DNA of 64,000 nt. It comes from Xiphophorus maculatus. Lineage: Eukaryota > Chordata > Actinopteri > Cyprinodontiformes > Poeciliidae. Below are positions 8,615 through 62,366 of the stretch, in pieces (position 1 is the first letter of the stretch; each line of letters opens with the position of its first letter). The DNA is taken from assembly GCF_002775205.1 (NCBI RefSeq), contig NC_036457.1, forward strand, positions 4,881,524 through 4,945,523, written 5' to 3'. The notes beneath the pieces are model-generated. The model did no database searches and was not told the origin of the DNA. It was given only the letters and a program-made list of their open reading frames with translations. Both the position numbers and the translations under genes were made by a program.

Positions 8615-8690
8615 TGACGTAGGCCTTTGTTCGGCCTGCGACTGTGACGTCACAATTTGCCTATGATCTCGTGACGTGAACAGACGTCAG
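8615..8690. promoter_or_regulatory. Cluster of CRE-like sites upstream of the 298-aa gene
   Basis: Four TGACG/CGTCA-type elements lie within 75 bp. They are TGACGTAG at 8615, the full palindrome TGACGTCA at 8645-8652, TGACGTGA at 8672-8679 and GACGTCAG at 8683-8690. They sit 100-180 bp before the ATG at 8793. Binding by CREB/CREM/ATF factors is inferred from the sequence. No TATA box is evident. Confidence 0.5.
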
Positions 8691-8792
8691 TCCCCGTTTC
8701 TCGGTCAGTTTGGATCATTTCAGTCCAGGAGCCGCTTGTTGTCGGTTGTTTGTTCCAAGAGGAGAAATAAATCAAGTTATTTTGAATCCAAA

Positions 8793-9689
8793 ATGTCTTT
8801 CGATGATGTAGAGATGGTGAATGAACTGAGACAGAACCTGGTCTACGGTCCTCCTGGGAAAAAAGACAAGATCAACACCATGGTGTGTGTTATGATTGTC
8901 AGGACTCTCAGAAACTGCGACATGAAAGCCAAAGGCATCCTCTCAGAGAGCTGCATGGCGAAGATGAAGAAGCGTCTGAAGAAGCTGATGATTTCCACTG
9001 GGGACCCAGACGGAGTTCTGGTCATCATCACCAAAGACAACTTATCGGACATCGTGACCACCGTTTCTGAAGCTCTGCACCAGCGGTTCGGCTCGTGTGA
9101 AGACATGGTGAAGGCGGCGATGAAGAGAGACGAGGAGTTTGACGAGGCGCTCATTGAAGTTCTGGCAGAGCAGCTTGGAGTTCGAATCCCGGACTGCCAC
9201 AGACACGATGCCAGCCCAGATCACGAGTCCGATTCGCCGTTTCCAGGACGCGCAGACAGCAGCGTCATCTTCTGCTGTCTGCTGCTCAGAAATATCATCA
9301 ACGTCCCTGAGGAGCTTTACGAGTTCTTCCCCTCAGATGTTCGGAAAATTATGGTGAGCCGTCTGTGCGGGTTGATGGTCCAACAGAACCAGATGACTGC
9401 TTCCCAACTGGAGCTGCAGACAGAAAACCTGGAGCGCATCGCTGCGGCCATTTCCAAGGAACTCCACGAGGCTTTCGGGTCAATCCAGAGACTTTTTAAA
9501 ATTGCTCTGCTTCCAAGAAACAGTTTCGACCTCTTGCTTCTGGATTACCTTGAAACCAGAATGAGCATCATAAGGAAACCCGAGAACACTCTGGCCCGAA
9601 TGTTTGGAGCCTTCGACCGGGACCTGGAGAACATCTCCAGGTGGTTCTACCGGCTCCGCACTTCTCGCTATGCAGGCCTGTTCTGGTAG
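8793..9689 (+). CDS. Intronless 298-aa protein with internal tandem duplication, unrecognised
   Basis: I do not recognise this family. The ATG at 8793 (context ccaaaATGt) is the first in-frame methionine; the frame extends upstream to a GTG but without ATG. It ends at TAG 9687-9689, with a polyadenylation signal at 9947-9952. Residues 30-128 align without gaps to 159-257 at an offset of 129. In the best part (83-128 against 212-257), 15 of 46 residues match: both start NL, share S..LH..FGS, then K.A, then FD. Both halves look helical. There is no signal peptide, and the short apolar stretch at 157-166 is weak as a membrane segment. The C-terminus is basic and aromatic. Codon usage and length argue for a real gene. 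It could be a lineage-specific teleost gene or an old retrogene; no poly-A tail or target-site duplication is visible. Confidence 0.75.
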   Translation: MSFDDVEMVNELRQNLVYGPPGKKDKINTMVCVMIVRTLRNCDMKAKGILSESCMAKMKKRLKKLMISTGDPDGVLVIITKDNLSDIVTTVSEALHQRFGSCEDMVKAAMKRDEEFDEALIEVLAEQLGVRIPDCHRHDASPDHESDSPFPGRADSSVIFCCLLLRNIINVPEELYEFFPSDVRKIMVSRLCGLMVQQNQMTASQLELQTENLERIAAAISKELHEAFGSIQRLFKIALLPRNSFDLLLLDYLETRMSIIRKPENTLARMFGAFDRDLENISRWFYRLRTSRYAGLFW

Positions 9690-9946
9690 AGAACCGAAAA
9701 CCTCCCGAACACAAATTTATGATTTCTGTCTCATTCCAACCAAAACAGATTCTCCTTTCAGCTACAGACATATCAATTATCTGGTCTTTAAAATGAAAAA
9801 GTTTCCTGCTTCCATAAAAACTGAGCCGGTTTGGTTTCAATCCCAGCCGATTGTTTCTACTCTTTTCTTTTTGGGTTTTCTCCGGGTAATCCGGGTTTTC
9901 CCATTTAATCCAAAACCACGAAACTAACTGGTCTCTAAATGATAAA

Positions 9947-9952
9947 AATAAA
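9947..9952 (+). terminator. Polyadenylation signal AATAAA
   Basis: A canonical AATAAA 258 bp after the stop of the 298-aa gene, in AT-rich DNA, is the likely 3' end signal of that transcript. Confidence 0.55.
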
Positions 9953-10139
9953 TCTCTTCAGGATAAAATACAACCTGACGGAGATTCAGTCCAATCAATG
10001 GTTGGATTTTACACTTTTATTAATTTCTCTAAAGCACTTTTTGCTTCTTTCCTTTCTTAAAAACTTCTCTATTTAATGTCAGCAAATTATTTCTACTCTT
10101 TCTACTTTAGGCATAAAAATATATAAAATAACCAATAAA

Positions 10140-10944: not shown

Positions 10945-11174
10945 CCATCCATCCATCCATCCATCCATCCATCCATCCATCCATCCATCCATCCATCCAT
11001 CCATCCATCCATCCATCCATCCATCCATCCATCCATCCATCATCCATCCATCCATCCATCCATCCATCCATCCATCCATCCATCATCCATCCATCCATCC
11101 ATCCATCCATCCATCCATCCATCCATCCATCCATCCATCCATCCATCCATCCATCCATCCATCCATCCATCCAT
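10945..11174. repeat. (ATCC)n tetranucleotide array
   Basis: About 230 bp of near-perfect ATCC units with two single-unit shortenings (CATCATCC). The frames HPSI and MDGW seen here are not proteins. Confidence 0.98.
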
Positions 11175-14432: not shown

Positions 14433-17400
14433 ATGCGATCCAGGAGCTGCAGCACCGCAGGTCCAGAGGATGGACGCATCCAGACGCACGGCAAGGCCTT
14501 CACCAAGCAGCAACAGGTGGAGGAAGGGGAGAAAGAAGCACCAGAGGTGATGAAGAGGAGGAAGAAAATCCAAAAACAGGAGAAAGATGACCGAACGGCC
14601 ACGACGCAGTCAGGAGACAAAACTGCAAAATGTCCAGAGAGCTGCAGGACAAATCCTCCGGGCCCGACCAGAACCGACCTGCTGCAGCTGCTGGGGATCA
14701 TGGAGGGGGAGCTGCAGGTAGCACAGCTGGGGTAAAACAGCTGGAGGGTAAAACAGCTGCAGGTAGCACAGCTAGGGTGAAACAGCTGGAGGGTAAAACA
14801 GCTGCAGGTAGCACAGCTAGGGTGAAACAGCTGGAGGGTAAAACAGCTGCAGGTAGCACAGCTAGGGTAAAACAGCTGGAGGGTAAAACAGCTGCAGGTA
14901 GCACAGCTAGGGTGAAACAGCTGGAGGGTAAAACAGCTGCAGGTAGCACAGCTAGGGTAAAACAGCTGGAGGGTAAAACAGCTGCAGGTAGCACAGCTGG
15001 GGTAAAACAGCTGGAGGGTAAAACAGCTGCAGGTAGCACAGCTGGGGTAAAACAGCTGGAGGGTAAAACAGCTGCAGGTAGCACAGCTGGGGTAAAACAG
15101 CTGGAGGGTAAAACAGCTGCAGGTAGCACAGCTGGGGTAAAACAGCTGGAGGGTAAAACAGCTGGGGGCGGGGGGGTTGACTGTTTGTGGATTTTTTTAT
15201 CTGAAATATTCTAAAGAAAATCCCAAAGCATAATGCTGACACGCGATTGGCTGGCCTTTCTTTTCCTTGATGCTGATTGGCTAAAGACCGGCTGTTAGCT
15301 TGTGCATTAGCGTCCAGGTCACCGTGTCTCTGCTGGTTCAGCAGCTGCCAGATTAAACCTCAACCTGGATTTTATTCAGGTATTTGTATAATAAATTAAA
15401 AACTTCCCAATAATTTTTACCACAGTTGTTAAAGAAATGCTCCTTTAAGATGGCTGAAAAGCCGCCATGTTGAGAAACATTTGACTCCCAGCTGGTCTGC
15501 ACTTCCTGCCGCTGCAGCCTGTTTCCTGTCTGAGATGAATTATGATGATTATTGTGATTTTTAATGGAATTTTGACTTTAATCATTTTGGGTTTTAAATA
15601 TTTCAAATGTTTTTAGTCACAGTGTTAAATGTTCTTTAGGTGATGATGAATGGAAACATGGCTGCACAGTGGCGCAGTTGGTAGCACTGTTGCTTTGCAG
15701 CAAGAAGGTCCTGGGTTCGATTCCCGGCCCGGGGTCTTTCTGCATGAAGTTTGCATGTTCTCCCTGTGCATGCGTGGGTTCTCTCCGGGTACTCCGGTAC
15801 TCCGGCTTCCTCCCACAGTCCAAAAACATGACTGTCAGGTTAATTGGTCTCTCTAAATTCTCCCTGTGTGAGTGTGTGTGTGTGTCCTGTCTGTCTCTGT
15901 GTTGCCCTGCGACAGACTGGCGACCTATCCAGGTTGACCCCGCCTCTCGCCTGGAACGTAGCTGGAGAGGCAGCAGCTCCTCCTGACCCCATTAGGGACA
16001 AGGGGTGAACAGAAAATGGATGGATGGATGGAAACATATGATAAAAACACAGAGATCGACTGATTGATTATCTGGTTGATTGATTTATTCTGTTTCTGTC
16101 GGACTCTTCTCGATGTTCCGGTTTCTCTTTCCTCCGGATCAGAACCGATCTGAGCTGCTTTCTGTCCTCAGGCCCGGGATGATGTCATCGGGCTGCTGCG
16201 GTCCGACAGAACCGGACCGGAGACCCTGGAGGCCCACTATGGCTCTGCTGCCCCCTGCAGGCCGCTGCAGGCGCTGCAGAGGGACGCGGCGCTTCTCCAT
16301 GGCAACCAGCGCACAGAGGACGTGTACGAGAGGCCGATGGCTGAGGTCAGAAGGTCAAAGCGGGTCTGGCTGTCTCCTTCCAGCTGATTGGTCACTTTGA
16401 CCCGGTCCGGTTCTGATTGGTTTAGATGTTTGTCTTCACATTCTGAGCTAAACCTCAAACAAGCCCTCAAACTCAGCATGATGCTGCCACCACCGTACTT
16501 GGCAGTTGGTATCATTTTTTTATTGGTCGATTTTTAAAATTTATGTTTAAATTATTTATTTTGTTTATTTTTTATTTGTTACAAATATTTCAATTTAATT
16601 TTATTAATTTTGTATGTTTTTTCCTTTTTTATTTATCTTTTGTATTATTTTTCCTTTTTTAATATTTTTCATATTTGTTCTTTTAAGTTTTTTCTTATTT
16701 GTTATTCTTTTATTTTCTTTCTTTATTTTTATTTTTTCAAAGACTATTTGTTATTTATTAAACAGAATTAAATTAACGGTGTGGTCCAAAGCTGCAGCAG
16801 GCTCCCCAGGCTCTCTGGAGCTGCCGGTTCCAGCGTGGGAACTGGACCGGACCGGACCGGGCGGATTGTGCTGACAGGCTCTCGTCTGGTCCTTGCAGCT
16901 GGACCGTCTGGAGGACAAGCAGAAGGAGACGTACAGGCGGATGCTGGAGCAGCTGCTGCTGGCGGAGAAATGCCACCGCCGCACCGTCATGGAGCTGGAC
17001 GGCGAGAAGCGGAAACACGCCGACTTCATCAACAAGAGCGACGACTTCACCAACCTGCTGGAGCAGGAGAGGGAGAGGTGAGCGCAGCGCCTGCTTCTGC
17101 CTGGGCCCGGCTGAGCTCAGCTGATTTATGAGCTTCTAGTTGTCCAGAACTCCTGATCCGAAGAGACGAACCGGAACCGGAGCAAAGATCCGGCTCCAAA
17201 CCGGATCTGAAGCTCTGAAGCAGCTGTTGTTGCTTCGCTGCGTTTAGTTCAGTTCAATTTAAATTCTGTTAAATTAATTTAAAATATTAATTACATTTTT
17301 TAAATATTCAATTTTAATTTCATCTTTTGTGATTTAATTTCCTTTTAAATTAATTAATTAAAATTAATACATTTTAAATTAATTTAACATTTTCCTTTCA

Positions 17401-20400
17401 TTAATTTAAGATTTAATTGAAGGACTCTGTCTTGGCCCGGTTCGGTCCGCTGACGTTTTCCTTCCTCAGACTGAAGCGGCTGCTGGAGCAGGAGAAGGTC
17501 CTGCAGGCCCGGCGGGACCAGCAGCACCGCAGGAGGCTGCAGGAGCTGCAGGACCAGCTGGGGAAGCTCAGGTCCTTCACTCTGCTGCTGGCGGACGAGC
17601 GGCAGCTGCACGTCGAACACATCGACCAGCAGAACCAGAAGATCCAGGATCTCAGCCAGAAGCTGCGGGACCGGGAGCAGCGGCTGGCTGCGACCAGCGA
17701 CGCCGCCCTGCAGGACGGGCAGAAGGCGCTGCGCCTGGAGGCGGAGCTGGAGGCCCAACAGGCGACCTTCAGGCAGGAGAACCAAGACCTGCTGGCCAAG
17801 ATGGCCGACCAGGAGTCCCAGAACCAGCAGCTGAGGCTGAAGCTGGATGGGCTGGCGCAGAGGGCTGGGGAGCTGCAGGAGAGGAACGCCCTGCTGCAGA
17901 AATCAGAGGAGGACCTGCAGCAGCTGAGAGAGAAGATCAGCAGCGGAGAGTGCGGGAACTCCTCGCTCACCGCAGAGCTGGAGAACCTGAGGAAGAAAGT
18001 CCTGGAGATGGAGGGCAAAGATGAAGAGATCACCAAGACCGAGACGATGTGCAGGGAGCTGAGGAACCAGCTGCAGGACCAGCAGAACCGCAACCAGGAG
18101 CTGCGGCTGCAGGTGGACAGCCTCCAGAAGAGGATGGCGGAGCTGGAGAGGCTGGAGGCGGCGTTCGGCAGGAGCCGGACGGAGAGCGCCCAGCTGCACC
18201 AAAACCTGGAGAAGGAGAGGAAGGTGGTGAAAGACCTGGGCACAGACCTGGAACGGCTTCGGACTCGGCTGAAGGAGCTGGAGTCGTCCGAGTCCAAGCT
18301 GGAGACAAACGAGTCGGCCCTCAGAGAGGAACTGCTGAAGCTGAAGTCCTTCACCGTCATCCTGGCGGACGAGAGGAAGACGATGGGGGAGCGGCTGAAG
18401 CAGGAGGAGCAGAAACACGAAGACTTGAGTACGATGCTGAAGGCAGAGCAAGGGAAGGTCACGGAAGTTACCGAGAAGCTGATAGAGGAGAGCAAGAAGT
18501 TCTTCAAGTTCAAGTCAGAGACAGAAGTCCAGCTGGAAGGTCTGACTCTGGAGAGGGAGGAGCTCCGATCGATGCTGAGGAACAGCGAGGAAGAGCGTGA
18601 CGAACTGAACGAGAAGCTGAAGAAGATGAGAGCAGACAGACTGGAGGAGACGGAAAACAGAGACCGAGAAGAAGACAACCGAGTCCAGAAGCTCACCACC
18701 GAGATAGAGAGGCTTAGAGGCCGGCTGGAGCAGCTGCAGGTGGTGGAGGGAGACCTGATGAGGTCAGAGGACGAGTATGACCTGCTGGAGAAGAAGTTCA
18801 GACACGAGCAGGACCGAGCAAACACGCTGTCCAACCTGGTGGACGAGATGAAGGCTCAGGTGGCCAGGAGCAAAGCAGTGGAGCGAGGTGAGGCCAAGAG
18901 TCTGGAGGCCCAGCTGAGGATCCGCTGCAAGGTGGAGGAGGCCAAGACCAGAGAGCTGCGGGTCGAAGTCCTAGCGCTCAAGGAGAAAATCCACGACCTC
19001 ATGAACAAGGAGGACCAGCTCTCCCAGCTGCAGGTGGATTTCTCTGTCCTCCAGCAGAGGTTCCTGGAGGAAGGAGAGAAGAAGAGGCGCCTGAGTGTGG
19101 ATCTGGAGAACCTCGCCAGGGAGCTGGAGGCCTCGAAGCGCTACAGCCGAGCCCTGAGGCCCGGTGTGAACGGCAGGAGGATGGTGGACGTCCCTGTCAC
19201 CTCCACAGCGGTCCAAACGGAGTCAAACGGGTCGGCCGAGGATGAGACCGCAGCCGGATTCATCCGGAAATCCGTTCAGGAGGAGAACCACCTCATGAAC
19301 AACCTCAGACAACACAGCCTGAAGAGGCCCGCGGTTCTGGATCGATACCCTCCGGCGTCAGCAGACCATGGAGGGAGACCCTCAACGCCCTGGATGGGCA
19401 AGAAGGAGGCCGTCACGCCGACTCAGACCAGAGGTTCCTCATCAATGTCCCCGAATCTGGGACGACCTCTTCACATCCGTGTGACACCAGACCACGGGAC
19501 GAGCACGGCCACCCTGGAGATCACCAGCCCGCGGTCTGAGGACTTCTTCTCCAGCACGACCATCATCCCAACGCTTGGTCTTCAGCAGCCTCGCATCACC
19601 ATAGTCCCCAAACCCTCAACTGTCTGCACTGTAAGCGGAGATTCTGATCGGGTCAAGTCTCCAGTTACGATCACCAGCATCTCCAGGACCAAGAGTCCAG
19701 AAAAGCCCCACAGCATTGCTGGGGTCCTGCAGTCGCCGGTGTCCATCATCACAGTCAGCACCACCCCGGTAGCCGAGGTGTGTGCTTCCTCCGACCCTCA
19801 CGAGAGCACCGCCAGGCGGACGCTGATCAAGATGACCTCCGAGAAACCACCAGAGAGGAAGTTCAACAGCAACATCGTAACGACAGAGGACAACAAGATC
19901 CACATCCACCTGGGCTCCCAGTTCCAGAGGAGCTCTGAGGGCAGCAGCAGTCCTCTACTGACCCTCAGACCAACAGGAAGTAGCTGCGACTGCCAGGAAA
20001 CTGGAACGGTGCTCCGCTCCCCGCGCCTGAACAAGATGACCAGCAGTATAACCATCAACCCTGTCACCTCTGCAGCGTCCAGACCCACGCAGCCTCTGGT
20101 GAGTGTCTGAAGATCTCGAGTGACATCTGATCTTCTGACACTTCAAATGATTCTGAATTGTTTCAGGTGACTGAGGATTCTGCAGGTATCAGATGGTGTC
20201 AGGACCAAAACACACTGGATCCGTTTTGGCATCCGATCCAATGGAAAGTTCGGTCTGACAATGTACGCAGCAATTAGAAGACGTTAAAGTCAGTGGGTCC
20301 TCACAGACCACTAGCGATTTCCTACAACAGCATTTCCGACTGCCCAACCACCCGAAACATCAGGTCTATTTTTGTTGAAACTACGCAACAATTAGAACAA

Positions 20401-42900: not shown

Positions 42901-45900
42901 TGTTTGGTGTTTGCAGTAGTGGATCCAGCCTCTAACCTCCGAATCCTGGAGGTGGCCTCCAAGTCCATGCGAGTGAGCTGGGACGCCTCTGGCGGAGACG
43001 TTTCAGGCTACCGGGTCCAGATGATCCCCATGATGGCCGGCAGCAAGCAGCAGGATTTGTACCTGGCCTCCACTCAGACCTCCGTGGTGGTCAGAGACCT
43101 TTCTCCTGACACCGTGTACCAAGTCAACGTTTTCACCATGAAGGACCTGATGTCCAGCGAGCCTGTGACGGTCATGCAGAAGACAGAACCTGTTAAAGTC
43201 TCCCTGGGTGCGTCCATGAAAATGTTTGACTCTATTAAAGCTGAAGGAATGTTTTCTTGTTGTTTGAGCTGAGTTTAAAGAAGCACTTGGTGTTTGTGGT
43301 TTCCATCCAGAGTGCTCTCTTGGAGTGGATGTGCAGGCTGACGTTGTGCTCCTGGTTGATGGATCCTACAGCATCGGCGTGACAAACTTTGCCAAAGTGA
43401 GAGCTTTCCTTGAAGTTCTGGTGAACACCTTTGACATCGGCCTAAACAAAGTCCAGATCGCCTTGGTGCAGTACAGCAGGGACTCATACACCGAGTTCTA
43501 CCTGAACACTCACCAAGACGTCAACGCCGTGGTCAAGGCGGTGAGGACTTTCCCGTATCGCGGCGGCTCTACCAACACCGGCAGGGCCATGACCTACGTC
43601 AGGGAGAAGATCTTCCAGACCAGCAGGGGGGCACGTGCCAACGTGCCCCGCGTCACCATCCTCATCACCGACGGCAAGTCGTCCGACGCTTTCAAAGATC
43701 CAGCCACCAAGCTGAGGAACGCAGATGTGGAGATCTTTGCCGTGGGCGTTAAAGACGCCGTACGAAGTGAGCTGGAGGCTATCGCCAACGCCCCCGCGGA
43801 GACTCACGTCTACACGGTGGAGGACTTCGACGCCTTCCAGAGAATATCCAAGGAGCTGACGCAATCCATCTGCCTGAGGATCGAGCAGGAAATCCGCAGC
43901 ATCTTCCAGAGACGTAAGTCATATTTACGCTTTACGCAGACGACGCTGTGGTGTGTTCAGATTTATCGGCAGAGGTTTAGTATCGAAAGACAAGCAAGAA
44001 GCAGAGTTAGATCTCTGTTGTAGCTTCGTTTATGAAAAATCTGAATAAGTTTATAATTTTCCTAAAGCCACAGAGGCCATTTTATCTCTCATTGTACACA
44101 CTGTCTTTATGAAATTAATATCTGTACCTCATTGTATTGGGATTGGCTTCAGAAAGGTTTTTATCTGTATGAACCAACATAAATACACTCTTGAATGTTG
44201 CTTTAAACCAAACCTACAGGGGGCAGTGTAGCGCTAAACTGCTTTTAAACATCAGAATGTAAAGTTATTAAAACATAAGACGATATATGTGGCAATATTA
44301 GCTCATTATTTGTCGCAGTAATTTGAAGGACCGTAAATCTCCGTTTTTTTTCATGAACACAAATACAGAGTTTTCTCAAATCTAGTCATAGTTTTTATAA
44401 ATTATCATTTTTAGTAATATAAAACTCTACTATAAAAATGTATCTGTGTATGTTTGGACTAGGCCTGAGTGGGACTGTGCTGACTAGGAAATGGTGAACA
44501 ATCACCTGTGTGTTTGGTTGTTTCTGGTTCTGTTAACCTGGCAGATTCTGGGTTAACATCTCACACAGCTGTGCTGTCATCACGCAGGATTATGACCTCT
44601 GACCTCTGCTATAGTCTCAGGAATTACATGCCGGTTCCAGAGCCAGACGTCCACCTGAGCCGATGCTGTGGTTAGGTGGAAACAGATGTGGAACCGTCAC
44701 AACATCTGTTCTGGGGTTTAGCAGCGGAGCGTGTAAAGTGAAACATGTCCATGTGTTGCTGCGCGGCGGTTTATTAGCGTCCAGAGGAATGCGGGTCAGA
44801 ACCGTGGTTCAGGATCCTCCAGTCAGAGCCAGGCTGCCCCCGTAATTATCTGGTCTCCTGCTCAGTTAATTATCAGTCTGTGTGGAATGATGTCAGAACT
44901 CCAGGTGGTGTCTGGAACCAGCTGCACTGGTTGACATTAAACCAGTTCAGCACCAGCCACGTCAGCGAAAGCCAATAAAAAACGTCCTTTCTATTTTACC
45001 TCCACTGGTGGAAAGCACGAAGTTTCCTCATCCTCACTGACTGCTGCACTTCATCTGATCTGTACCATTGCGTCTGTTTCTGCTGGTTGAAGAGGCTCCA
45101 GGTTTTTTCTGCTGGTTTTAAATCTGGCTGATCATCAGCGAGAAGGCCTGTTTCTGTTTGATTCAATGAAACCAAAGAATGTGAATCCTTACTTAAGTTT
45201 AAAAATGTAGCTTCTTCTGCTTCCACATCTGCTGCGTAGAATGAGTAACGTTTCCACACGAAGAACCTTTTCCAAGAACCAGAGTCGTTTTCTGGATCCA
45301 CCAGAGAAAACGGCTCATTTCCTGTTCGACCAAACGAACATGGAAACGGCAGAGAGGCCGGGAACTTTCACTCTGACTGGAGAAGACATCCGCCTCTGCA
45401 GAAAACATTTAGTGAGTTTTTCATTAGACATTTTATCACAATGTTCTGAAACACAAATAAAGTCTCCAAGATGGTGGAAACATTTCAGTTTGGAAACGAG
45501 GCGACGCAGCAACGAGTTTTAGGATCAGGCCGTTACCCAGGAGAGTTTTCTACATTAATAGCATAAAGTTTAAATAATGCGAGAAAGAGACGCTACATTA
45601 AAATAAATCTGATGACACGTACGGTTTATGAAATAAGTCGTATTTCAGAAACTTTATTTCATAATAAAGTTGTTTCAACCAGAATAAAGTCATAATAATA
45701 CAATAATTAAGTTGTAATATTAGGAGAATATAGTCGTTATAACATGAGAATAGTTGTAATAATACAAGATTAAAGTCATCACAATACGAAACCAAAGTAG
45801 CAGCAATGTGTGAATAAAGTTGTTATTCTATGAAAATAGTAATTAGGTCATAATATTACCAGAATGAAGTTGTAATAATAAGAGATTTTTGCTGTAATAT

Positions 45901-57900: not shown

Positions 57901-60900
57901 ACAACAAGTGTAGCTCCAGCATAAAGTTAGCATAAATAATTGTTGTGTATTTTCTCTCTGAGAGCGGCTAACTGTCCGTCTTTAAGAACCCCGCTGCTAA
58001 GCTAACCAGCTGAACATGACAGCTGTCAGAAAACCTGGAGCTGCTGCTGCGTTTCCACGGCTCTGCCTGGTGGCTAACGCATTCATATCAATCTGTAATT
58101 TAACAGATATTATACCAAATCAATAAAAAGTTCATATTAATAATAAATATTAGTCATGGTGTTGTGTAAATAAGTATCTCACACAGTGTGTTAGCTCCTC
58201 ATGATGGGACACACTACCTAGTTCTTTGGAAAAAAGATCGCTCTGATCTATTTTATAGGAAATTCATAACATTAAATTTGTAAAAGTGTGTGAATACTTT
58301 CTGGTGACGAAATATTTAAAAACAGACGTATTATCACCTTTAAGAGTTAAAAAACTGCAGCTGAGAGAAGTTTAGAGTCTGACTGTGCCTCCCAATAAAA
58401 TCCTTCCAGGATGAAATGAGGCATTTAGAGACCGTGGGAGCGCTAACAGTCCATACCGCAGCGTTCCCCCGCATGGCTTCTTTATCACTTCCAGATGCAT
58501 CACAATGCTTCAGCTGTTCCAGGTCCATCGCTCAATACCTGGGGAGCTGCAGCCTGAGGCAGGGGACGATGGTGGGGACAGAAGGGCACAAGGACTGTCC
58601 CTCATTAATTGAACTGAGGATCGGTGGTGTTTGTGTCCCCAGCGTCTCCAGCGGCTAAGTCTCTGACGGTGTCCCATGAGACGGAGCGGACCATGAAGGT
58701 CACATGGACACCGGCTCCAGGGAACGTCCTCAACTACCGTCTGAAGTACGTCCCCATGGACGGAGGCAAAGAGGTAATCCTGAAGCTGCCGGGGACGGCG
58801 GCGTCCACCGTCCTGAAGCGCCTGCAGCCTGACACGTCCTACAACGTCTCCGTCCTGCCCGTCTACAAGCGCGGGGACGGAAAACCAAGGCAAGGAGTAG
58901 GAACGACACGTACGTTGGTCCAAGATTCAGCCTGCTCACCAAGAGACACGTCCACAGAGACAGAAACACGTCCACAGAAACACATCCACAGAGACACGTC
59001 CACAGAGACATGTCCACAGAAACACGTCCACAGAGACAGAGACACGTCCACAGAGACAGAAACACGTCCACACAAACACGTCCACAGAGACAGAGACACG
59101 TCCACAGAGACAGACACGTCCACAGAGACAGAAACACGTCCACACAAACACGTCCACAGAAACAGAGACACGTCCACAGCAACACGTCCACAGAGATAGA
59201 AACACGTCCACAGAAACACATCCACAGAGACAGAGACACGTCCACAGAGACAGTAGCTGCTTTTCTGTTACAAATGTGAACAAATTTCTGTCAATTTTCT
59301 GTTAATTTCGAAAAAAAACACAATTTCCTAATTTCTGTTTCCATTAAATAAGAAACTAAATTAAAATCATTTAGAAATATTTTTGTTTTTTAATAATGTG
59401 ATAAATATTAGGAATCATCAAACTACTTCCTGTTGTCTTCTTCTTTGTTTTATTGGCGGTTGGCAAATAAGTTTTGGAGTACTACTGCCCCCAACTGGTG
59501 AAGATTATGAACAACATTCCTGTTTGCTTCGTGTTATTAAATTGTTTTTTTCCCATTAATTACATTTATTTTCATAATTCTAATTTTGCAATTTTATTGT
59601 TAATAGAAACGCAGCTGCTGTAAACTCCAGTTTTATTAGTGAAGAACATTTCAGCAAGAATCCAGATTTTATATTAAAAAAACATCATAAATTATGGCCA
59701 AGCAACAAACAAACGTTACATTTTGTCAAACATATCAATCAATGATTCATCTACTGTTAATCTGATCAGATCCAACCAACTGGCTTCAGTCTGGGTTTAA
59801 AGGAGCTCAGGGTTTCACCTGGTTTCAGTTTTCTGGAAGTTTGTTGCAGATCTGTGGAGAACAGAAGCTGAATGCTGCTCCTCCATGTTTGGTTCTGGTT
59901 CTGCTCTGTATCAGATCAGCAGGTTGATCCAGCAGCAGCAGATCTTTAATCCGTTCAGTGATTTATAAACTACTGGGTGGTGTAGAACCGGGTGGTGTCT
60001 CTATCCTCCTGGTTCTAGTCAGAACTCCAGCAGCAGCGTTCTGGACCGTTGGGTTGTCAATCAGACCTGTGAAGACGCTGCTGCAGGAATCAAAGCCACT
60101 AAAGAGAAACGCCTGGATGAGTTTCTTGATCTGAGACTTTAGTCCTCTGGTCCTGGAAATGTTCTAATGTTTGCCTCAGCGATGCTAGCTACTTTTACAC
60201 CATTCAGATTCATTATACACTGGCCTCCAGAAGGGGGCGCTGGTCCACTCTGGTTTCCTCTGGCCCCCTCTGGTCTCCTCTGGCCCCCTCTGGTCTCCTC
60301 TGGCCTCCTCTGGTCTCCTCTGGCCTCCTCTGGCCCCCTCTGGTTTCCTCTGGCCCCCTCTGGTCTCCTCTGGCCCCCTCTGGTTTCCTCTGGCCCCATC
60401 TGGTCTCCTCTGGTTTCCTCTGGCCCCCTCTGGCCTCCTCTGGTCTCCTCTGGCCTCGTCTGGCCCCCTCTGGCCTCCTCTGGTCTCCTCTGGCCCCCTT
60501 TGGCCCCCTCTGGTCTCCTCTGGCCTCGTCTGGCCCCATCTGGTCTCCTCTGGTTTCCTCTGGCCCCCTCTGGCCTCCTCTGGTCTCCTCTGGCCTCGTC
60601 TGGCCCCCTCTGGCCTCCTCTGGTCTCCTCTGGCCCCCTTTGGCCCGGCCCCCTCTGGTCTCCTCTGGCCTCGTCTGGCCCCCTCTGGCCTCCTCTGGTC
60701 TCCTCTGGCCCCCTCTGGCCTCCTCTGGTCTCCTCTGGCCCCCTCTGGCCTCCTCTGGTCTCCTCTGGCCTCCTCTGGTCTCCTCTGGTCTCCTCTGGCC
60801 CCCTCTGGCCTCCTCTGGTCTCCTCTGGCCCCCTCTGGTTTCCTCTGGCCCCCTCTCGTTTCCTCTGGCCCCATCTGGTCTCCTCTGGCCTCCTCTGGCC

Positions 60901-62366
60901 CCCTCTGGTCTCCTCTGGCCTTGTCTGGCCCCCTCTGGCCCCCTCTGGTCTCCTCTGGCCCCCTCTGGCCCCCTCTGGCCCCCGCTGGTCTCCTCTGGTT
61001 TCCTCTGGTCTCCTCTGGTTTCCTCTGGCTCCCTCTGGTCTCCTCCCACCCAGAAGGAGGTCCTGACTCCTCCTCCTCTGTCCCTTGTAGTGCCGGCCTT
61101 CAAGGCCCCCAGGAACCTGCAGACCTCTGAACCCACTAAGACCAGCTTCAGGGTTTCCTGGGACCCGGCTCCGGGGGACGTGCGGGGCTACAGGGTGACC
61201 TTTCACCCCTCTGGGAACGATGTGGACCCGGGGGAGCTCATGGTCGGTCCGTACGACAACACCGTGGTTCTGGAGGAGCTCAGGTACGCTCACCTGCAGG
61301 TGTTTGGTTCATTCTGGTCAGAAAGGCTCATAAGTATACATACAGGCTCTGACATGTCCTGCTATGTAACTTTTATAACAAATAGGATTTTACATTTTTG
61401 CCTGTTATGATAATAAATTCAGCTACACGATAAACAAGTTATTGCGATAAATGATAATATTGTTGTTTTGAGACCATTTTCCAGTAATCAATGGTAATTA
61501 TTAATGACATAATAATTTTATTCTCAAAGAATAAACTTTAAACTCGAATAAACATTTAACTGGAACTGGGAAACATTTTAAATATCCAGAATAAGTAATT
61601 AAATAAATTATTAAGTCTACGTAACAAAGTTATCTTTTTTGCTCCCTGCTAGTCTACAGCTAGCATGAATGCTAAGGCTAGTTAGCATAGCCACAGTTTT
61701 TCTGTAACAGTAAGCGGTTTCTCCTCCACTAGCATATTTAGCAGCACCAGCATAAGGTTAGTTGACAGCGCTAAGCCCCGCCTCCTGGCTCTGATTAGTT
61801 GTTTTTGGTCCAGATCAAACTGACAGTTTAATAAATATGTAATAAACCTTTTTTAGTTTTTAATAAGCCTTTCAAATGAAGAGACCTGCTTCCTCTTCCT
61901 CCACCAGAGGTCAGAGCGTTGGGATCATCTCTCTGTGTTCATGTTTCATTGTTCCACTTGTAATGATGCTGCCACCGCCGTGCCTTGCAGCTCCTCCTCT
62001 TTAGTTTGACTCCAAACATGTTTCCTGAAAGTTGAGGATCTTTCATCTGGAGAAATGGTTGGCGGTCCGATGAGACGAACGTTGAGCTGAGGCTTGGTGG
62101 TGGCAGCATCATGCTGTGCAGGAACTGATCGGAATGCTGAAGAAGTGGGCCCAGCTGGGTTCTGATTGGGGTGAAAGTCTTCCTGAAGCTCCGCCCCTCT
62201 CTGTCAGGGAAGAGGAAGTGATGTCATTTGTCTCCCTGCAGGGTGGGAACCAAGTACTCTGTGGCTGTTTTTGGGATGTTTGACGGCGGCGTGAGCTCGC
62301 CACTGGCCGGGGAGGAGAAAACCACACTGATGGACGAACCGGAACCTCTGCCTCTGGACCCCTCTG
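30919..62366 (+). CDS. col12a1: Collagen alpha-1(XII) chain, 5' half (14 exons, incomplete at 3')
   Basis: FACIT collagen of tendon, ligament, fascia and muscle matrix; it coats collagen I fibrils. Coding exons: 30919-30982, 33914-34030, 35381-35524, 36429-36488, 38340-38603, 39897-40061, 41410-41583, 42917-43207, 43311-43913, 51284-51562, 56820-57089, 58643-58909, 61091-61283 and 62242-62366. They join in one frame (3016 nt, about 1005 residues). The order is signal peptide (1 to about 18), FN3-1, linker, VWA-1, FN3-2, VWA-2, FN3-3, then FN3s matching human FN3-6, -7 and -8. All introns are phase 1 except the one inside FN3-8 (phase 2). Human FN3-4 and FN3-5 have no counterpart here. VWA-3, the later FN3s, the thrombospondin-like domain and the collagen domains lie beyond the window. 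Fish often keep two ohnologues; I cannot tell which this is. Confidence 0.95.
30991..31074 (+). repeat. (TCC)n pyrimidine tract at the col12a1 intron 1 donor
   Basis: About 28 uninterrupted TCC units begin 9 nt after the exon 1 donor. On the transcript it is a long pyrimidine tract; the poly-Ser frame is spurious. Confidence 0.97.
32299..32354 (+). repeat. 16-bp minisatellite (cctctgtccactcgtc)
   Basis: About 3.5 units in col12a1 intron 1. It runs straight into the inverted repeat at 32350-32410. Confidence 0.85.
32350..32410. repeat. Nested inverted repeat (hairpin)
   Basis: The 11-bp arms CTGTACACGGA (32350-32360) and TCCGTGTACAG (32400-32410) are perfect complements. Inside them AAGTTG (32381) pairs with CAACTT (32394). 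The transcript could fold into a two-part stem-loop, or this may be the remains of a small palindromic element. Confidence 0.7.
32513..32790 (+). mobile_element. Decayed Tc1-like element in col12a1 intron 1
   Basis: The left end has ggccactttattaggtacac (32517-32536), the terminal repeat of a common fish Tc1-like transposon, followed by 'agtcagccaatcagatggcag'-like DNA. Near the right end 'cgggatgtggtgg' (32692) and 'tagcaaggtg' (32743) match the element's 3' part, then a mutated inverted end. Most of the transposase is deleted. Confidence 0.65.
33120..33250 (+). repeat. About 40-bp minisatellite (acatgtagttagc core)
   Basis: 'tagttagcatgtaaacatg' alternates with 'tagttagcgtgttaaacatg' for about three double units in col12a1 intron 1. 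Confidence 0.85.
33914..35524 (+). CDS. col12a1: col12a1 exons 2-3: first fibronectin type III domain
   Basis: Exons 33914-34030 and 35381-35524 encode residues about 22-108. The first has [19 protein letters not shown] and [11 protein letters not shown]; the second has [17 protein letters not shown] and PISGQLT. Both splice in phase 1. The pattern of conserved Trp, Leu and Tyr is that of FN3, and matches human FN3-1. Confidence 0.93.
34190..34700 (+). repeat. GCTA-rich dispersed repeat with YY1-like motifs
   Basis: It begins 'gttagcattagcatctgct' and carries 'ggttagctgtgcccacc' and 'agtaactgctgatgatttta', then 'aaatgattcaaaata' and two ATGGCGGCCATTTTG palindromes (34407 and 34674). The 37560-38220 copy shares the later phrases, so the family unit is several hundred bp. 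Confidence 0.65.
34840..34985 (+). mobile_element. Tc1-like relic including a terminal segment
   Basis: The + strand reads [12 protein letters not shown], a mutated GGGSIMLWG motif. About 90 bp later 'gggtgtaaatactttttcac' resembles the Tc1 family right end. The DNA between is drastically shortened. Confidence 0.5.
36429..36488 (+). CDS. col12a1: col12a1 exon 4: Ser-rich linker
   Basis: A 60-nt phase 1-1 exon encoding a Ser/Arg-rich linker (ESSSSSRGG, then KPDSSDPVS) between FN3-1 and VWA-1. The position equals the variable linker of human COL12A1. It is supported by acceptor ttccag, donor GTAAGT and frame, though not by sequence conservation. Confidence 0.75.
37560..38220 (+). repeat. GCTA-rich dispersed repeat, long copy in col12a1 intron 4
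   Basis: It contains 'aagatggccgccattttg' (37606), 'ctagcattagcttc', 'agcatcagcttctgct', 'gtgttagcagagcta', 'ggctaactgacaataactac' and 'tatgattcaaaata'. The order resembles the 34190 copy. Confidence 0.6.
38340..41583 (+). CDS. col12a1: col12a1 exons 5-7: first von Willebrand factor A domain
   Basis: Exons 38340-38603, 39897-40061 and 41410-41583 encode residues about 129-329. The metal-ion site is intact: DGSWS (143-147), the Thr in GGNTRTG (214) and ITDGKS with Asp247. Other VWA marks are [17 protein letters not shown] and [10 protein letters not shown]. It ends with [16 protein letters not shown], like human. It probably mediates ligand binding in the NC3 region. A GCCCCGCC minisatellite follows the last donor. 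Confidence 0.94.
39531..39634 (+). mobile_element. 3' fragment of the same SINE family
   Basis: It begins 'gcgacagactggcgacctcc' and continues through the 'gagaggcagcagctcctcct' segment to an ATGG tail, matching 15907-16027 of the filip1 SINE. The head is absent, so this is a 5'-truncated copy, in col12a1 intron 5. Confidence 0.8.
40465..40842 (+). repeat. 10-bp minisatellite GTTGGTTTCT
   Basis: About 38 units of gttggtttct, gttggttttt and gttgattttt. The + strand is almost pure G/T with sparse C and A. It lies about 400 bp downstream of the exon 6 donor in col12a1 intron 6. Frames across it ([16 protein letters not shown]) are spurious. Confidence 0.95.
41586..41692 (+). repeat. 15-bp minisatellite (TGCCCCGCCTTGCTC) at the exon 7 donor
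   Basis: About seven GC-rich units (variants ttgctc, atttc, ttctc) start within 10 nt of the GT at 41584 in col12a1 intron 7. Confidence 0.9.
42240..42650 (+). repeat. GCTA-rich dispersed repeat in col12a1 intron 7
   Basis: It contains 'ctttagcattagcttctgct', 'accatgctagtttag', 'tagcgttagcagaact' and 'catgttggcatgttgg', shared with the 20885 and 47745 copies. Confidence 0.6.
42917..43207 (+). CDS. col12a1: col12a1 exon 8: second fibronectin type III domain
   Basis: A single 291-nt phase 1-1 exon, residues about 330-426. It carries [46 protein letters not shown] and [16 protein letters not shown], closely matching human FN3-2 (MTAGS, SSEPISIMEKTQPMKV). Confidence 0.94.
43311..43913 (+). CDS. 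col12a1: col12a1 exon 9: second von Willebrand factor A domain
   Basis: One 603-nt exon encodes the whole domain, residues about 427-627. The metal-site motifs are DGSYS (443-447), GGSTNTG and ITDGKSSD. Stretches such as [20 protein letters not shown] and [14 protein letters not shown] are nearly identical to human. It ends [10 protein letters not shown]. This is the best-conserved block in the window. Confidence 0.96.
45630..45905. repeat. Degenerate 'aataaagtcgtaatatta' tandem repeat
   Basis: 'agaataaagtcataataatac' and 'gaatagttgtaataatacaag' variants recur about every 30-35 bp. Weaker traces lie at 700-860 and 28470-28530. Confidence 0.7.
46170..46285. repeat. Short tandem repeat 'aatcatttagtcctta'
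   Basis: About seven irregular units in col12a1 intron 9. Confidence 0.8.
47745..47885 (+). repeat. GCTA-rich dispersed repeat in col12a1 intron 9
   Basis: 'gacacatggtagcatcaac', 'atggctaaagtaacgc', 'gcattagcttccacc' and 'tagcattagcttctgct' match the 20885 copy in order. Confidence 0.7.
48250..50165 (+). mobile_element. L1-type LINE relic (ORF2 reverse transcriptase, broken)
   Basis: Fragments in shifting frames read in L1 order: [10 protein letters not shown] (about 48380), [20 protein letters not shown] (48630), [11 protein letters not shown] (48765), [14 protein letters not shown] (49150), [18 protein letters not shown] (49355), [14 protein letters not shown] (49465) and the C-terminal [18 protein letters not shown] cysteine motif (49960). 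Many stops and frameshifts interrupt it, and the catalytic Asp-Asp motif near 49065 is mutated. It is inactive and 5'-truncated, same sense as col12a1. Confidence 0.85.
51284..51562 (+). CDS. col12a1: col12a1 exon 10: third fibronectin type III domain
   Basis: A 279-nt phase 1-1 exon, residues about 628-720. [22 protein letters not shown] and [21 protein letters not shown] show the FN3 pattern. PKALTFSDV corresponds to human FN3-3 PKDLSFSEV. Similarity is only moderate, typical of this domain. Confidence 0.92.
53390..53610 (+). repeat. Degenerate 'gtcgctaaatttgttgctttttgaaa' repeat
   Basis: About five diverged units of roughly 37 bp in T-rich DNA. Confidence 0.65.
54485..54810 (+). repeat. 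17-bp minisatellite (GTAGGTGTTAGCGCTGA)
   Basis: About 18 units, with variants gtgggtgttagcgttca and gtaggtgttagcgctct. Many units carry the palindrome AGCGCT. The TTAGCG core may derive from the GCTA family. Confidence 0.93.
55225..55445 (+). repeat. GCTA-rich dispersed repeat in col12a1 intron 10
   Basis: 'ttagcattagcttccactt', 'gtgttggtataacgc', 'ttagcgttagcttctgct' and 'tttgtgattagtgc' match the 20885 copy in order. Confidence 0.7.
56223..56420 (+). repeat. 25-bp minisatellite (catccaaccgttcaaccgattcgtt)
   Basis: Three near-perfect units, then shortened 12-13 bp variants (catccaaccgtt, caacccattcatt). It lies about 400 bp before the 56820 exon. Confidence 0.93.
56820..57089 (+). CDS. 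col12a1: col12a1 exon 11: FN3 domain matching human FN3-6
   Basis: A 270-nt phase 1-1 exon, residues about 721-810. [36 protein letters not shown] and [15 protein letters not shown] correspond to human QDLVTKDITDTSIGAYW, APGMVRGYRVSWKSLYDD and LQPETKYRISVFATY. The WKSL motif is specific to that domain, which is why I number it 6 and not 4. Confidence 0.93.
57120..57850. repeat. AT-rich DNA with repeated 'agctaaatatttagctt' words
   Basis: In col12a1 intron 11 at least ten variants of 'aagctaaatatttagc' recur at irregular spacing. Relation to the GCTA family is likely but unproven. The rest of the intron shows no exon; at 58270-58305 'gtgtgtgaatacttt' resembles a Tc1 element end. Confidence 0.6.
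58643..58909 (+). CDS. col12a1: col12a1 exon 12: FN3 domain matching human FN3-7
   Basis: A 267-nt phase 1-1 exon, residues about 811-899. [38 protein letters not shown] and [12 protein letters not shown] mirror human [38 protein letters not shown] and GEGKLRQGSGTT. It contains a potential N-glycosylation site (NVS). Confidence 0.95.
58946..59252 (+). repeat. Minisatellite ACACGTCCACAGAGACAG after the exon 12 donor
   Basis: About 300 bp of 12-18 bp units (acacgtccacag plus agacag or aa) starting 36 nt after the donor at 58910. All three frames stay open on both strands, giving spurious Thr/Glu/Arg and Val/Asp/Cys frames. Confidence 0.95.
60248..61044 (+). repeat. 10-bp minisatellite TCTGGYCYCC, about 80 copies, before exon 13
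   Basis: Near-perfect 10-bp register (tctggccccc, tctggtctcc, tctggcctcc, tctggtttcc) for about 800 bp, ending 46 nt before the exon at 61091. The + strand is C/T-rich. No unit contains a stop in any frame, which yields open frames of up to 384 codons on both strands. Confidence 0.97.
61091..62366 (+). CDS. col12a1: col12a1 exons 13-14: FN3 domain matching human FN3-8 and linker
   Basis: Exons 61091-61283 and 62242-62366 (phase 2 intron between them), residues about 900-1005. [35 protein letters not shown] and [14 protein letters not shown], then [16 protein letters not shown], are nearly identical to human. An acidic Pro-rich linker ([10 protein letters not shown]) follows and ends in phase 1, before the expected VWA-3 exon outside the window. 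Confidence 0.95.
61915..62130 (+). mobile_element. Tc1-like relic inside the FN3-8 intron
   Basis: 'ccgatgagacgaacgttgag' followed by 'cttggtggtggcagcatcatg' (LGGGSIML) is the Tc1 transposase DE-region in decayed form. About 100 bp upstream 'atgatgctgccaccgccgtg' is the same motif inverted, so two opposed fragments adjoin. Confidence 0.6.

Follow-up and report, generated by a model that had tools for sequence, protein, structure and literature searches.

A short intronless gene of Xiphophorus maculatus carries two copies of a domain from an apparently undescribed gene family

We analysed a 64,000-nucleotide stretch of the Xiphophorus maculatus genome (the window) that carries on its forward strand an intronless reading frame of 298 amino acids. 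The features of this locus, in window coordinates, are as follows.

8642..10138, + strand: block common to an inverted second copy, with 91% identity over 1510 aligned columns
8645..8652, + strand: palindromic CRE-type site TGACGTCA, at -148 from the ATG, present in both copies
8672..8681, + strand: 10-mer TGACGTGAAC, at -121 from the ATG, present in both copies
8793..9689 (stop included), + strand: intronless reading frame of 298 aa, from translation, ORF simulation and codon usage
8850..9191, + strand: domain copy 1, residues 20–133, from self-alignments (family profile match at residues 28–127, 30.3 bits)
9192..9239, + strand: linker between the domain copies, residues 134–149, rich in H, D, S and P, from the translation, with borders from the self-alignments
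9240..9578, + strand: domain copy 2, residues 150–262, from self-alignments (family profile match at residues 162–258, 11.3 bits)
9579..9686, + strand: C-terminal tail, residues 263–298, from comparison with the second copy
9947..9952, + strand: AATAAA, a candidate polyadenylation signal lying within the block common to both copies, from the motif only

Elsewhere in the window, the frame at 43325–44023 matched VWA, the frame at 58624–59199 matched fn3, the frame at 17417–20110 matched CortBP2 under the cut-off, and the frame at 1939–2622 matched no family. We take the neighbours of the 298-aa gene in the window to be FILIP1, COL12A1 and SLC35D3. A long CATC tetranucleotide microsatellite lies downstream of the gene (approximately 10945–11173), a frame of near-identical repeats of ~15 residues, probably a minisatellite, occupies 14630–15214, and long overlapping frames on both strands run across a short tandem repeat at 60167–61410, which appears to be a minisatellite that stays open in several frames. 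Searching the 64-kb window against Rfam gave no matches.

The translation of 8793–9689 ends at a TAG and contains no internal stop, and the gene is intronless in its coding part. Among 1000 Markov-1 simulations of equal length, the longest open stretch anywhere was 231 codons and the per-simulation maximum averaged 97. GC content at codon positions 1, 2 and 3 of the frame is 0.53, 0.35 and 0.67. The frame has a higher codon-usage score than each of the other five frames, and none of 1000 synonymous randomisations matched it; usage was trained on three reading frames in the window that we assumed to be genes. Judged by this coding signature, 8793–9689 is a real protein-coding gene. Its initial description as an intronless gene is confirmed for the coding frame; the 5' UTR may contain an intron. 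The predicted protein has a mass of 34 kDa, a pI of 6.0 and a GRAVY value of -0.17.

The best ungapped self-diagonal of the protein lies at an offset of 129 (residues 28–130 against 157–259) with a score of 95, which was reached by none of 1000 shuffles (mean 27.5, maximum 51). This confirms the ungapped duplication that the preliminary description had reported at the same offset. The borders given there (30–128 against 159–257) enclose 23 identities in 99 positions, and a recount on the printed alignment agrees with the 15 identities in 46 positions claimed for the second half of the repeat. Gapped alignment of the two halves scored 104, against a maximum of 52 in 1000 shuffles, and added a leftward stretch extending to a PG..D common to both copies (from residues 21 and 151). 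Because the gapped match reaches PG..D, the repeat unit is ~113 residues (20–133 and 150–262) and not the ~99 residues proposed earlier. On these alignments, the 298-aa protein is composed of two diverged copies of one domain.

A search of the whole assembly (704,300,149 bases in 101 contigs) located a second intact copy of the gene at C15:4804343–4805239, on the opposite strand and ~85 kb away, with 94% protein identity; a frame beside it is presumably taxilin-beta. The two copies differ at 26 nucleotides and 17 amino acids, with 4 of the nucleotide differences in codons 1–232 and 22 in codons 233–298, and 14 of the amino-acid differences within residues 233–298. Counted per 100 columns, identity in the shared block is 80% at first, 99–100% for ~8742–9441, 96 and 92% to ~9641, 62 and 71% for ~9642–9833, 97% for 9834–10032 and 76% in the last full segment. 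This mosaic fits gene conversion between the inverted copies. The pair would have originated by copying at the DNA level, followed by sequence exchange between the two copies through gene conversion; since the duplicated block begins at the CRE-type site, ~150 bp ahead of the ATG, DNA-level copying fits better than a retro-origin.

No further copy was detected by tblastn or with a half-domain profile in the 255 kb around both copies. Weak tblastn matches across this 255-kb region were inspected and dismissed as noise. A long open stretch lies on the minus strand at C15:4761301–4762600; we take it to resemble Helitron-like mobile-element proteins.

The whole-genome protein search with the 298-aa gene returned three matches: both short copies and a weak match on C8 (E 2.15). 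The latter sits within a 726-aa open frame that contains DLKEQFGSAEELQRAAM, resembling LHQRFGSCEDMVKAAM of the 298-aa gene. With the C8 frame as query, four loci with large frames were found.

Large gene C8: match at C8:1388218–1390101, frame L027:1210–3387; 725 aa from the ATG, one open frame
Large gene C1: match at C1:1358459–1360327, frame L028:1210–3399; 729 aa from the ATG, one open frame
Large gene C18: match at C18:28673109–28675097, frame L029:1210–3468; 752 aa from the ATG, one open frame
Large gene C3: match at C3:15654314–15656287, frame L030:814–3120; 768 aa from the ATG, one open frame

The four large proteins align with 48–77% identity to the first row. Pairwise dN/dS among their genes is 0.34–0.51 (six pairs), a range that fits purifying selection on the large frames. 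The search with the C8 frame (30942127, E 0.316) and a search with the C18 domain (30942124, E 5.9e-8) also located a decayed relative on C3; this relic (L038:1501–1692, from 30942124) is a short fragment of the C-terminal domain with a broken frame.

Homology between the short and large proteins was assessed with an independent family profile built from the C-terminal domains of the four large proteins alone, with the 298-aa gene left out. The profile scored the 298-aa protein at 43.5 bits in total, in two places, while the best of 2000 shuffles scored 8.9. When 5280 open stretches from the 255-kb region were scored with it, the second copy came first (E 7.7e-12) and the 298-aa gene second (E 1.3e-11); the E-value was 3.6 for the next match and 0.43 for the best reversed stretch. 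A reverse profile, built from the four half-domains of both copies, matched each of the four large proteins at its C-terminus (25.3, 21.0, 19.8 and 13.0 bits, scored over the whole protein), and hhalign of the short-gene and large-protein domain profiles gave a probability of 96.5% (E 8e-10). Six positions (L76, F80, G81, S82, A90 and L105) are invariant in all eight domain rows, which include two near-identical copy pairs. The core motif, L...FGS followed by A and then L, is present in both halves of the 298-aa gene and in the large proteins. By these profile comparisons, the domain that ends each of the four large proteins is homologous to both domains of the 298-aa gene.

The large genes and the 298-aa gene are alike in this domain (~112 residues in the family, the large proteins having 17–23% identity to domain 1) and in having a single open frame. 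They differ in architecture: each large protein carries one domain after 586–628 N-terminal residues that the 298-aa gene does not have. Several domain copies per large protein were considered and ruled out. The absence of the N-terminal part places the 298-aa gene in a short branch and not in the large subfamily. We picture it as a short branch, with two domains, of a multi-gene family; the other intact members found in this genome are likewise intronless and encode 725–768 aa. The 586–628 N-terminal residues of the large proteins are likewise unrecognised at accepted Pfam scores. The preliminary description was right that the domain is unrecognised, as far as the libraries searched here go; it had overlooked the other intact copy as well as the larger proteins in which the same domain occurs.

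Between the two short copies, dN/dS is ~0.77 (0.80 in the diverged tail), which does not point to strong purifying selection and would suit a frame that is not functional, either a chance long open frame or a young pseudogene. The ORF simulation, the codon usage, the intactness of both copies and the domain homology to a family that looks selected all speak against such a frame, and we consider it very improbable.

The lack of introns in the coding frame could instead mark a retrogene, copied from the mRNA of a parent with introns, and the preliminary description had suggested a retro-derived gene. In zebrafish, nearly 28% of orphan genes are single-exon, against 6% of conserved genes, and the authors of that study name retroposition as one possible reason (PMC3599513). 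As a class, these lineage-specific zebrafish genes resemble the 298-aa gene in being intronless and without a recognised family. A six-frame search of the genome found no intron-bearing parent, at a sensitivity that placed the large relatives at E 2.15, so that a very diverged parent could escape it. The intact relatives that were found have one open frame each, and the block common to both copies extends into upstream DNA that holds CRE-type sites. Inspection of the printed junctions by eye showed neither a poly-A tail nor a matching target-site duplication, although such marks fade with age. On balance, the retro-derived reading is not upheld, and we judge a retrogene quite improbable; the family as a whole may have arisen by retroposition long ago.

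Dispersed intronless relatives could also be genes borne by a mobile element, with the 298-aa gene a remnant or a domesticated part of one. The four dispersed intronless loci show some similarity in both flanks, and the decayed fragment on C3 would fit this origin as well. The flanks compared at the large loci extend ~0.8–1.5 kb beyond the frames, and element ends possibly lie further out. Copy number is low, with at least four large genes, at least two short genes and at least one relic; no transposase, polymerase or integrase family was matched at accepted scores, and the large genes look selected. We consider an element origin very improbable.

No Pfam family exceeded a curated cut-off, whether the query was the entire 298-aa protein, either of its halves, its second copy, any of the four large proteins or any of the eight domain rows. 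Searches of NCBIfam and PHROGs with the 298-aa gene alone gave nothing significant, and PDB sequences gave no matches to the 298-aa gene or the C18 protein. The clear match to a known family that would have refuted the earlier reading did not turn up in the Pfam, NCBIfam, PHROGs and PDB sequences searched. When the PDB was searched with the domain profile, the best match was 5cwb, a designed helical repeat protein (E 0.0023), followed by an engineered cytochrome (E 0.0037), and the first natural chain was interleukin-13 (E 0.64). The match to 5cwb, which is helical, reflects helix-like composition and not descent, 5cwb being designed. The large-protein profile had no matches in the PDB. No relative of the 298-aa gene was found in phages by tblastn, or in viral contigs and prokaryote genomes with short exact peptide patterns, which would reveal close relatives only. 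Among the papers listed in literature searches, we recognised none on this domain family, although word-based searching is weak evidence of absence. The 298-aa gene apparently belongs to an undescribed gene family.

One Pfam family below the cut-off bears on what the family might do. Weak matches to FSIP2 (fibrous sheath-interacting protein 2, PF15783) came from two of the eight domain sequences, C18 (E 0.0046, 15.4 bits) and C3 (E 0.010, 14.3 bits), and they fall at nearly equal profile positions (175–212 and 179–208). They would suit a family of sperm proteins, scaffolding of the fibrous-sheath or flagellum kind, whose genes would be switched on in spermatids by CREM-type activators at the CRE sites. 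CREM activates CRE-type sites in spermatids, and such sites lie upstream of the 298-aa gene. This germ-cell reading would account for the intronless structure, the fast evolution and the lineage restriction. The FSIP2 scores, however, are far under the curated cut-off of 27 bits, and unrelated Pfam families score similarly (WH_Rok 0.0065, DUF7883 0.011). The matches cover 30–39 residues of an 875-position profile, neither domain of the 298-aa gene is among the matching sequences, and FSIP2 was not among the Pfam matches of the four full-length large proteins at E-values up to 1. CRE-type sites are, moreover, common in many promoters. We regard the germ-cell reading as unlikely, and a sperm role of the family as a lead only.

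The upstream regions of the short and large genes were compared for shared sequence. The CRE-type 10-mer TGACGTGAAC also occurs upstream of three large genes, at -145 (C8), -135 (C1) and -160 (C18), with a variant at -92 (C3). Only 3 of 2972 random 250-mers contained a 10-mer conserved, as in the 298-aa gene, in at least three of the four large genes; under a looser rule (a 10-mer common to at least two of the four), 76 of 2976 random stretches did as well. Ten settings of this k-mer test were run, and the looser ones were weaker. No 11- or 12-mer is common to the upstream regions of the 298-aa gene and the large genes, and a proximal-upstream profile of the four large genes matched the promoter of the 298-aa gene only at E 18. 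Pairwise upstream alignments were equalled by 40, 25, 17 and 9 of 992 random stretches (C8, C1, C18 and C3, respectively), and their scores by 0–14 of 500 shuffles. The CRE-type site TGACGTCA occurs five times in the 64-kb window. Transcription would probably start from a compact CRE/ATF-type promoter. The upstream sequences make CRE-type control common to the short and large genes plausible, and they are only suggestive of a common promoter ancestry.

Structure prediction gave an all-helical model for the whole protein (mean pLDDT 37, poor) and for the single domain (mean pLDDT 57, weak). The best part of the domain model is residues 62–110 (block confidence 60–80), where L...FGS forms a turn between two helices. 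With a mean confidence of just 57, we claim no fold for the domain. As for the suggestion that the gene might encode a novel helical repeat protein, the repeat of an unrecognised domain holds, and low-confidence models predict it to be all-helical.

Each ~113-residue domain may be a compact helical bundle with the L...FGS, A and L motif, and such a bundle could serve as a protein-protein contact module. Two modules joined by a short polar linker on one chain would make a small adaptor that bridges two partners or, alternatively, competes for the partners that the large proteins would bind through their C-terminal module. We give about even weight to the reading in which the 298-aa protein belongs to an intronless family and acts as a helical adaptor with two domains, its gene probably being subject to CREB/ATF-type regulation. 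This adaptor role is a generic proposal, drawn from the all-helical prediction.

Intronless genes restricted to one lineage occur commonly, and most of them lack an explanation. Intronless orphans as such have been described before; the novelty lies in the domain family with its two architectures. A broader proposal, which we think unlikely, is that the domain family is undescribed, restricted to fish and present in intronless genes alone, that within some germ-cell structure the short two-domain proteins would compete with their large relatives or bridge them, and that gene conversion would keep the copies alike. The analysis places what was a lone oddity in a family that can be defined by a domain core, by two architectures and by intact, apparently selected paralogues, and a family so defined makes tests of expression, knock-out and structure specific.
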